Assembly: GCA_000238815.2 (NCBI GenBank)
Contig: AFXB01000010.1
Span: forward strand, 624,501 to 688,500
DNA: 64,000 bases
Source of the DNA: SAR116 cluster alpha proteobacterium HIMB100
GTDB taxonomy: Bacteria; Pseudomonadota; Alphaproteobacteria; Puniceispirillales; Puniceispirillaceae
Reading direction: 5' to 3'
Both the position numbers and the translations under genes were made by a program. Under the pieces are notes generated by a model. That model did not search any database, was not told the DNA's origin, and saw only the letters and a list, made by a program, of their open reading frames with translations. Shown piece after piece: positions 15,844 through 18,698 of this stretch (position 1 is the first letter of the stretch; every line of letters begins with the position of its first letter).

Positions 15844-17145
15844 ATGTCAGACAGTCATCTTCACACCAAAATAGCACCTCTCAGCGCATCTGAAGCTGCG
15901 GTAATGGTCAGCCAGATGGCCACTGAGGCAAGACACAGTCAGGCAATCCTTGGTCAGGCTGAGACTGAACAGCGGAATCAAGCGCTCACGCGGGCAGCAG
16001 ACCTGATTCGCAAAAACAGCAAACAGATCGGGGCTGCCAATCAAATTGATGTGGCGCGTGGCAGACAAACTGGATTAACAGAGGCTTTTATTGACCGGCT
16101 GACCATGACCAAAGACCGGATTGAGGCAATGGCAACAGGTCTAGAGGATATCGCCCGGCTCTCAGATCCGCTGGGGTTGGAGCTAGCCAGATGGACACGT
16201 CCGAACGGCCTGGACATCACCCGCATATCAACTGCGCTGGGCGTTATTGGCGTGATTTACGAATCACGTCCAAATGTGACCATTGATGCAGCAGGCTTAT
16301 GTGTTAAATCTGGCAATGCTGTGATTTTGCGGGGCGGCAGTGATTCGCATGAAACCAGCCAGCTTCTGTCTCGGCTGATGCGCGACGGGCTTACCGCAGC
16401 AGGGCTGCCTGAAAATGCGGTACAGACTGTTCCGTCACCTGATCGGGCTTTGGTTGGCGCGATGCTGGCAGCATCTGGTCAAATTGATGTCATCATTCCG
16501 CGCGGTGGCAAAGGGCTGGTCAGCCGTGTTCAAGATGAAGCCCGCGTCCCTGTTTTTGCGCATCTGGAAGGGATTTGCCATCTATATGTCTCGGCCAAGG
16601 CTGATATGACAACCGCTGCTGAGATTTGTTTCAACGCAAAAATGAGGCGTGTAGGTATCTGTGGGGCAGCAGAAACCCTGTTATTGGACAGTGCGCTATC
16701 TGAAGCTGATATCACAACAATCATCCGCCGGTTACTTGATGGGGGTTGTGAGGTGCGCGGTACCGACGCCATTCTGGCATGTGATAACCGTGTTGTTCGG
16801 GCAGCTGACAGTGACTGGGGATGTGAGTTTCTGGCTCCGGTTATTGCCGTGAAAACCGTACCTGGTCTAAGCGATGCTGTAGAGCATATCCGCACCCATG
16901 GGTCTGGCCATACCGAAAGCATCATTACTGAAGATGAAGATGAAGCAGAGCGGTTTTTGAATGAAGTAGATAGCGCAATTGTTATGGTTAATGCCTCTAC
17001 CCAATTTGCTGATGGCGGTGAATTTGGTATGGGCGCTGAAATTGGAATTGCTACAGGCAGGCTGCATGCCAGAGGGCCTGTTGGCGCAGCGCAATTAACA
17101 AGTTTTAAATATGCTGTGCGCGGCACAGGACAAACACGTGCCTGA
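15844..17145 (+). CDS. proA: Gamma-glutamyl phosphate reductase
   Basis: 433 residues of the aldehyde-dehydrogenase superfamily. Reduces glutamyl-5-phosphate to the semialdehyde with NADPH. Motifs are GVIGVIYESRPNVT, the NADP-side ILRGGSDS, and the catalytic cysteine in RRVGICGAAETLLLD. Full length. Its end overlaps the start of nadD, indicating coupled translation. Confidence 0.96.
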   Translation: MSDSHLHTKIAPLSASEAAVMVSQMATEARHSQAILGQAETEQRNQALTRAADLIRKNSKQIGAANQIDVARGRQTGLTEAFIDRLTMTKDRIEAMATGLEDIARLSDPLGLELARWTRPNGLDITRISTALGVIGVIYESRPNVTIDAAGLCVKSGNAVILRGGSDSHETSQLLSRLMRDGLTAAGLPENAVQTVPSPDRALVGAMLAASGQIDVIIPRGGKGLVSRVQDEARVPVFAHLEGICHLYVSAKADMTTAAEICFNAKMRRVGICGAAETLLLDSALSEADITTIIRRLLDGGCEVRGTDAILACDNRVVRAADSDWGCEFLAPVIAVKTVPGLSDAVEHIRTHGSGHTESIITEDEDEAERFLNEVDSAIVMVNASTQFADGGEFGMGAEIGIATGRLHARGPVGAAQLTSFKYAVRGTGQTRA

Positions 17146-17746
17146 CTTCCGCCCGCCATTATCAGCCGCCTGCCCGCATTACAGCTACCGGCGGCGTATC
17201 GGCATCATGGGAGGATCTTTCAATCCGGCTCATAACGGGCATCTGCATAGTACTGCTCTTGCAAAGCGTGCGGCCCAACTGGATGAAGTGTGGTGGCTGG
17301 TAAGCCCGCAAAATCCTTTGAAGAGCGCTGATGAAATGGCCTCTTTTTCCCGCCGATTCGCCAGTGCGCAAGCTGTGGCCATACCTCATCGCTGGATAAA
17401 AATCCTTGATTTTGAGCAGCGACACGGGCTCAGTTTCACAGCGCACAGCCTGAAAAAGCTGGCCTGCCACTGTCCGCGGGCAGAGTTCGTCTGGATCATG
17501 GGCGCAGATAATCTGATTCAGTTTCCGCACTGGTATCGTGCCTCTGCACTGGCACAGCTGCTTCCGGTACTGGTCATCAACAGACCGACTTATGGCTATC
17601 AGAGCCTGGCGTCTCGCGGGGCGCGCCTGTTAGGATTAAAACGGCGCTCACCACGCCGCTTATCCCGTAAATCAGGTGGGTGGGCCTTTCTGCATGGCGC
17701 AAGCAACCCGTCTTCATCAACTGCAATTCGGCGCGGCTATTCATGA
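17138..17746 (+). CDS. nadD: Nicotinate-nucleotide adenylyltransferase
   Basis: Forms NaAD from nicotinate mononucleotide and ATP in NAD synthesis. 202 residues from GTG 17138 with AGGA 9 bases upstream; ATG 17111 would give a longer form with a deeper overlap with proA. The nucleotidyltransferase motif is GGSFNPAHNGHL and the second signature is SSTAIRRG at the extreme C-terminus. The protein stops just four residues after the ATP-binding ISSTxIR-type motif, shorter than the family norm, where a further helix usually follows. Confidence 0.93.
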   Translation: MPDFRPPLSAACPHYSYRRRIGIMGGSFNPAHNGHLHSTALAKRAAQLDEVWWLVSPQNPLKSADEMASFSRRFASAQAVAIPHRWIKILDFEQRHGLSFTAHSLKKLACHCPRAEFVWIMGADNLIQFPHWYRASALAQLLPVLVINRPTYGYQSLASRGARLLGLKRRSPRRLSRKSGGWAFLHGASNPSSSTAIRRGYS

Positions 17747-17825
17747 TATCTTGCCCCAGAGGCGAAAAAACGATACGCTGAAGTAACGATTCGGTGATCG
17801 GTAGACTAAAATGAGGAGATAAACC

Positions 17826-18209
17826 ATTACCACGGACGTCCTAGCGCACCTTACCCCTGAACAGGTCAAAGATCTGGTGGTGCAATCGCTTGACGATAAT
17901 AAAGGGATCGATATTGTCTCCATTCCCCTGAGCGGTAAATCTTCGATGGCTGACTTCATGGTCATTGCCTCAGGCGGATCTTCGCGCCAGGTTTCAGCTT
18001 TGGCAGAACATCTTGAGGTACGCTTAAAGAAATCCGGCGTATCTATTCTGGGCAAAGAAGGCTTGTCTCAGGCAGACTGGGTCTTGCTGGATACCGCTGA
18101 GGTCATTGTTCACCTGTTCCGCCCTGAAGTGCGCGAATTTTATGCGCTAGAGCGGATGTGGGACAGCGCCGCCCCAACTGATGAAATTGTTCATGTCCAT
18201 GCTGATTAG
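17826..18209 (+). CDS. rsfS: Ribosomal silencing factor RsfS, apparent ATT start
   Basis: Binds L14 of the 50S subunit and blocks subunit joining in starvation. Conserved segments are LDDNKGIDI, GKSSMADFMVIASG, the WVLLD strand and VREFYALERMW. The frame opens after a stop at 17820-17822 and has no ATG, GTG or TTG before GTG 17877. Starting at 17877 would remove the first helix (LTPEQVKDLVVQSL), which family members keep. ATT 17826 lies 7 bases after GAGGAG (17813-17818) and gives a normal 127-residue protein. Between nadD and rlmH, as usual in alphaproteobacteria. Confidence 0.9.
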   Translation: MTTDVLAHLTPEQVKDLVVQSLDDNKGIDIVSIPLSGKSSMADFMVIASGGSSRQVSALAEHLEVRLKKSGVSILGKEGLSQADWVLLDTAEVIVHLFRPEVREFYALERMWDSAAPTDEIVHVHAD

Positions 18210-18230: not shown

Positions 18231-18698
18231 ATGAAACTGACCATATTGGCAATCGGAAAAGCCCGCAAAAGCCCTGAGGCTGAATTGTGGGCAGATTGGC
18301 TGAAGCGGTGCCCGTTTCCAGCAACATTGCAAGAATTTGACTCTCGGCTGCCCCCGGGGTCGGCCAGAACAGAAGATGAAAGCCGGAAAATGCTGCATTT
18401 TGTTCAGCAGGCGCAAGGGTCGACGAAGCGGCTGATTGGACTTGATCCAACAGGCATAAATATAAGTTCAGAAGAGCTTTCAGAGATGATTGGCAGATGG
18501 CGGGCTGATGGGGTATCACATTGCTTTTTTGCTGTTGGCGGGGCTGATGGTCACCACCACAATCTGGTGAAGGCGTGTGATAAACTGATTTCTTTTGGCC
18601 GGGTGACCTGGCCACACATGTTGTGCCGTGCAATGTTGGCTGAACAGCTTTACAGAGCAGAAATGATTCTTGCCCGTCACCCCTATCACCGGGCCTGA
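18231..18698 (+). CDS. rlmH: 23S rRNA pseudouridine-1915 N3-methyltransferase
   Basis: 155 residues, the SPOUT-family RlmH. It methylates pseudouridine 1915 in helix 69. The knotted SAM site shows IGLDPTG, FAVGGADGH and the C-terminal LLAEQLYRAEMI-like segment followed by HPYHRA, the conserved end of the family. Starts 21 bases after rsfS. Confidence 0.96.
   Translation: MKLTILAIGKARKSPEAELWADWLKRCPFPATLQEFDSRLPPGSARTEDESRKMLHFVQQAQGSTKRLIGLDPTGINISSEELSEMIGRWRADGVSHCFFAVGGADGHHHNLVKACDKLISFGRVTWPHMLCRAMLAEQLYRAEMILARHPYHRA

Follow-up and report, generated by a model that had tools for sequence, protein, structure and literature searches.

In the SAR116 alphaproteobacterium HIMB100, translation of rsfS very probably starts at an ATT codon, judging from the placement of that codon behind a strong Shine-Dalgarno sequence (SD) and from its retention in relatives. 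The explanation that we favour as a whole, with a probability of roughly 0.7, combines an AUU start, a near-cognate codon kept in the lineage, gating of this start by initiation factor 3 (IF3) and a joint response with infC, the gene for IF3. Coordinates refer to the window, i.e. the whole stretch of 64,000 nucleotides that was analysed, and the parts of rsfS and rlmH placed by coordinate lie on its plus strand.

The window carries the gene order nadD - rsfS - rlmH, as judged by open reading frame (ORF) position and translated similarity. Among 195 rsfS loci, rlmH was found in 168 and nadD in 162, in counts that include short loci and repeats of one place. In the window, nadD occupies 17111-17746, and the end of proA extends over its first ATG. 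The rsfS coding sequence (17826..18209) has 127 codons and a TAG stop, and its product matches the PF02410 domain with 107.2 bits against a curated cut-off of 21.6 (E 8.8e-31) as well as solved RsfS relatives, the best being 3ups, 'Iojap-like protein' (E 5.8e-35). The original prediction had stated that the frame is closed upstream by an in-frame stop at 17820-17822 and contains no ATG, GTG or TTG before GTG 17877, and direct reading of the window confirmed both points: TAA at 17820-17822 is followed by ACC at 17823 and then by ATT at 17826-17828, the inferred start codon. It had also pointed to a good SD, GAGGAG (17813-17818), seven bases ahead of ATT 17826, and this too was borne out. Read as AGGAGA (17814..17819), the SD lies six bases ahead of the ATT. 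At normal spacing the SD match is 5 bases for the ATT, 3 for CTG 17874, 3 for GTG 17877 and 2 for GTG 17880. RNA structure around the start was not unusual in this one sequence, being looser than in shuffles (z +1.83), and a simple scan of 17650-17900 found no sigma-70 promoter or terminator.

The start region was then compared across the order, i.e. the SAR116 group, whose families are labelled f1, f2, f3 and f4. rsfS was found in 7/8 genomes of the genus, 55/61 of the family and 67/72 order genomes that are at least 80% complete. After duplicate removal, 74 distinct 5' ends were compared, the window among them; the counts leave out G020, whose rsfS is cut at its N-terminus, the second match of G033 and that of G080, and a number of other genomes from f3 and f4 (e.g. 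G068, G072, G073, G076-G078, G087). All 64 distinct sequences from f1, f2 and f4, window included, have an in-frame ATT (56), ATC (5) or ATA (3) behind GGAG, and in none of the 64 is an ATG, GTG or TTG similarly placed behind an SD 10-22 codons ahead of residue 17. When the test was relaxed to any run of four contiguous SD bases over 150 nt, a single TTG was added (1/64), that of L041, which lies 12 codons upstream of the ATT and has a 4-base SD match. In 19/64 sequences the frame is free of canonical codons over the whole interval that begins 150 nt upstream, or at the nearest stop, and ends at residue 17; the remaining 45 contain some in-frame canonical codon, but at other spacings. ATG stands immediately after the SD in L066 and L068, and three codons downstream of the ATT in most members of genus g9. 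When the strongest SD of each gene was used to call the start, ATT, ATC or ATA was called in 63/64 order sequences, and the exception, L014, also carries ATT behind TGGAGA. The third base of the start codon changed at least five times on the RsfS tree, which is weakly resolved, with few columns and many unresolved forks, and it is never G in f1, f2 or f4. Family f3 differs, as an SD-anchored start codon is absent at the site in 10/10 sequences, and its rsfS seems to use ATG. The comparison of relatives' 5' ends, by which the prediction was to be judged, therefore gave ATH (ATT, ATC or ATA) with no equivalently placed ATG in three of the four families.

These relatives leave a sequencing or assembly error, in which an ATG was read as ATT, with a negligible probability: ATH occurs in 64/64 distinct sequences of three families, some of them from single-contig genomes, and ATT in the single-contig genomes G014, G019, G083 and G093, among others, excludes one bad base call. 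We regard this reading as refuted. A start further downstream, at GTG 17877..17879 or at CTG 17874, would make RsfS about 17 residues shorter and has in its favour that the GTG is the first canonical codon in the rsfS frame. The GTG has an SD match of only 3 bases, it encodes a conserved V/I (residue 18), and the residues just before it are conserved as protein. The conserved part begins with codons 9-17 (17850..17876), which would be absent from a product started at the GTG; in 53 f1 sequences residue 11 is P/A, residue 12 mostly D/E, residue 13 Q/E, residue 14 I/V/L and residue 17 L in 48/53. Over codons 9-16 of the same sequences, pairwise differences are 0.26 at the second base and 0.60 at the third, and residues 2-8 are variable, with no codon periodicity (0.46, 0.50, 0.55), so that codons 9-16 look protein-coding although they lie upstream of GTG 17877. 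Since the 53 sequences were selected by ATH and GGAG, their 100% AT at the start is by construction, and the unselected counts are those of the 64/64 set. Alignments to 13 solved sequences begin at window residues 9-13 in 8, the others at residues 4, 16 (three) and 28. Four relatives (L013, L016, L021, L025) have zero canonical codons in that N-terminal part. We rejected the GTG start, which is very unlikely, on its weak SD, the protein conservation upstream of it and the solved-sequence alignments. The prediction that it would cut the conserved part of the protein thus holds, and conservation in the order, together with protein-level conservation upstream of the GTG, speaks strongly for the ATT start. 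One part of the original prediction was not supported, namely that a three-codon ORF, ATG AGG AGA TAA (17811..17822), might add control over rsfS; translational coupling and SD occupancy were considered as ways for it to do so. The ORF does overlap the SD, with just three bases separating its stop from the ATT; yet the exact ORF is present in 1/64 sequences, that of the window, and any mini-ORF at this place in 12/64. We judge it incidental, being not conserved, and a controlling role for it highly improbable.

Chance controls point the same way as the conservation of the ATT. Out-of-frame reading (+1 and +2) behind the same SDs gave near-cognate codons in 3/64 and 0/64 sequences, respectively, and no canonical codons. 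The SD of rsfS is stronger than those of the two neighbouring genes: at least four contiguous SD matches were present in 64/64 rsfS sequences of the order, 25/52 of rlmH, for which the stretch searched was shorter, and 15/47 of nadD. The SD search stretch varies by gene and that of nadD is nearest to that of rsfS, so nadD is the fairer control for chance. For rlmH (18231..18698, ATG start), ATG is found in 50/50 distinct order sequences aligned to residue 1 or 2. A near-cognate codon with SD and no canonical codon with SD was seen at gpmI in 1/52 order sequences, 0/10 in f3 and none of 37 class sequences.

Beyond the order, rsfS was found in 371/388 genomes of the class that were searched. The class sample was made up of the 30 best-scoring loci, 46 family-spread loci picked blind to their start codons and four more. 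Class and order together gave 154 distinct rsfS sequences in 55 families, of which 117 have a near-cognate codon with SD only, 6 have both kinds of site, 2 have a canonical codon with SD only, 3 have ATG with a long spacer, 23 have a canonical codon without SD and 3 have none. Near-cognate codons with SD, and no canonical codon with SD, form the family majority in 35/55 families for rsfS, 0/49 for rlmH (p 1e-13) and 7/47 for nadD (Fisher p 7e-7), and at the sequence level they were seen in 2/136 rlmH and 14/117 nadD sequences. Outside the window's order, the corresponding family counts are 32/51 for rsfS, 0/45 for rlmH and 6/43 for nadD. Both kinds of site occur in 5/80 class sequences, and a canonical codon with SD only in 2/80. 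As inferred from these sequences, most of the families sampled in the class show a near-cognate rsfS start. The original prediction had treated the ATT as a rare case; ATT does stand at rsfS, but as one form of a class pattern that includes ATC, ATA and CTG rather than as a rarity of a single gene.

Named records, of which 79 of 80 were scored, gave ATA in 12, CTG in 11, ATT in 10, ATC in 3, TTG in 16, GTG in 1 and other arrangements in 26. The last group includes Novosphingobium and Erythrobacteraceae (L225, L231, L232, L267-L269, L290), in which the ATG follows the SD after an unusually long spacer of about 13-14 nt. Several Sphingomonas rsfS genes have a TTG start. CTG stands behind AGGAGG in three named Rhodobacteraceae records (L274, L275, L293) and behind AGGAGG-like SDs in 7/7 members of family f17. 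An out-of-frame ATG lies between the SD (AGGAGG or CGGAGG) and the CTG in L096, L101, L173 and L182 of f17 and in L274, L275 and L293. This ATG was rejected as the start in f17 and Rhodobacteraceae, being missing in the f17 members L086, L100 and L194. On the start codons read here, the codon drifts among ATT, ATC, ATA and CTG and the predicted weak state persists over many families. The near-cognate pattern was not found in 20 distinct sequences from outside the class, comprising E. coli and the best-scoring loci of the same phylum (ATG 7, TTG 4, CTG 1, other 8). The rsfS gene of E. coli is annotated with TTG.

The closest parallel lies in the same genomes. infC was matched in 19/21 order relatives, the two without a match being incomplete genomes, and all 19 matched genomes, including the window genome and two of f3, carry ATA behind an SD when read by eye. 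In the window genome, infC (L208; G000:C6, ~54502) has ATA behind AAGGAG at the expected start. The recovery of ATA at infC indicates that our approach detects the classical near-cognate case, and autoregulation from such a start, as is usual for IF3 genes, is probable in the SAR116 lineage too. Like infC genes, the window rsfS has no canonical codon usable at its translation start, a good SD at normal spacing (AGGAGA, gap 6) and a near-cognate state that is kept in relatives (64/64 in f1, f2 and f4; 0/10 in f3). Both genes thus have a near-cognate ATH behind an SD, both are present in the window genome, and both encode ribosome anti-association factors. They differ in that RsfS works on the 50S side, so a loop would need IF3 and would not be simple autoregulation. 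We know of no role for RsfS in checking start codons. In f3, rsfS has no SD-anchored codon (loci L153-L161 and L172), while the infC ATA is retained in 2/2 genomes. Since f3 rsfS does without the gate although f3 infC keeps ATA, the gate would be dispensable.

Other genes with near-cognate starts offer partial precedents. In E. coli, pcnB reportedly has an AUU start that limits its expression (a finding ascribed to Binns and Masters, 2002). It resembles rsfS as a chromosomal gene whose AUU start restrains expression, and differs in that its product is not known to be a ribosome factor, whereas RsfS is one. The pcnB AUU is also mentioned together with infC in excerpts of PMC4245954. The Streptomyces sigR gene has a GTC start that was experimentally shown to be repressed by IF3, according to the portion of PMC5472188 consulted. 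In that portion sigR is like rsfS in its non-canonical codon, its strong conserved ribosome binding site, the change of its codon (GTT in 2/34 species) and a start that misled annotation; it is unlike rsfS in codon and pathway, and its authors see there no evidence in other named actinobacterial genera (PMC5472188). In S. aureus, infC (AUA), ccpN (AUA) and cvfC1 (AUU) have strong SDs, and near-cognate starts with a strong SD lower expression, with reporters weaker than ATG, as excerpts of PMC13009471 report. ccpN and cvfC1 share with rsfS a conserved near-cognate codon and a strong SD, but they are other genes, and cvfC1 is conserved in Staphylococci whereas rsfS keeps its codon across many families of the class (PMC13009471, in part). 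RsfS is known from E. coli and S. aureus to bind uL14 and to keep the subunits from joining (PMC3400551, PMC7125091, both in part). E. coli lacking rimM has elevated levels of both IF3 and RsfS, which the authors suggest guard against premature subunit joining; deletion of rsfS in that study did not shorten the delayed recovery, and the paper nowhere uses the term 'start codon' (PMC13246957). Given the annotated TTG start of E. coli rsfS, an ATH codon does not explain its rise together with IF3. Among the matches listed from openly licensed papers, we found no report of an unusual rsfS start. Within the main-text portions that we drew on, PMC3305630 contains 'iojap' 0 times and gives start codons as ATG, GTG and TTG, and PMC7566282 contains 'rsfS' 0 times.

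Selection seems to favour weak initiation of rsfS, and gating of its start by IF3 is likely, as far as sequence comparison can tell. The strong SD would draw 30S subunits to the rsfS start, where AUU would mispair partly with the initiator tRNA and IF3 would reject most complexes. RsfS would then be kept low in growing cells, and its synthesis would depend on how much IF3 is free. When IF3 is taken up by free 30S subunits or assembly intermediates, initiation at AUU, AUC and AUA would increase, and rsfS would presumably rise as free IF3 drops. We hypothesise a joint response, in which infC (AUA) and rsfS would rise together and add anti-association on the 30S side through IF3 and on the 50S side through RsfS via uL14. 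That RsfS synthesis is sensitive to initiation fidelity, with possible feedback, is plausible by analogy, given the infC ATA in the same genomes and IF3-repressed starts elsewhere (PMC5472188, in part).

The rival to such gating is that the near-cognate codon only sets dosage, fixing RsfS at a low, constant level with no physiological response to IF3, as has been reported of E. coli pcnB. We give it somewhat less than an even chance. It gains from other alphaproteobacterial lineages, which apparently weaken initiation by TTG, by a long-spacer ATG or by ATG without SD, so that selection may act on weak initiation itself; the TTG of Sphingomonas and the long-spacer ATG of Novosphingobium and Erythrobacteraceae fit general weak initiation rather than IF3 gating. 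If dosage were all, a weak SD with ATG would do, yet three families retain a near-cognate codon behind a strong SD, and infC of the same genomes shares the start architecture of rsfS. The strength of the SD favours a fidelity gate over mere low dosage, though neither this nor the infC likeness is decisive. Gating by IF3 could extend further, such that in Alphaproteobacteria rsfS and infC make up a regulon of two genes with IF3 itself as the readout. Through the near-cognate codons, the balance between free IF3 and 30S subunits would then set the synthesis of both factors and provide subunit-joining homeostasis without a dedicated regulator; we consider this extension possible but rather unlikely.

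Few bacterial genes with conserved near-cognate starts are known, and rsfS would add one that is kept over many families and whose product acts at the step governed by initiation factors. In many members of the class, gene finders limited to ATG, GTG and TTG would put the RsfS start in the wrong place. The proposed link between IF3 and RsfS, two anti-association factors, becomes directly testable.
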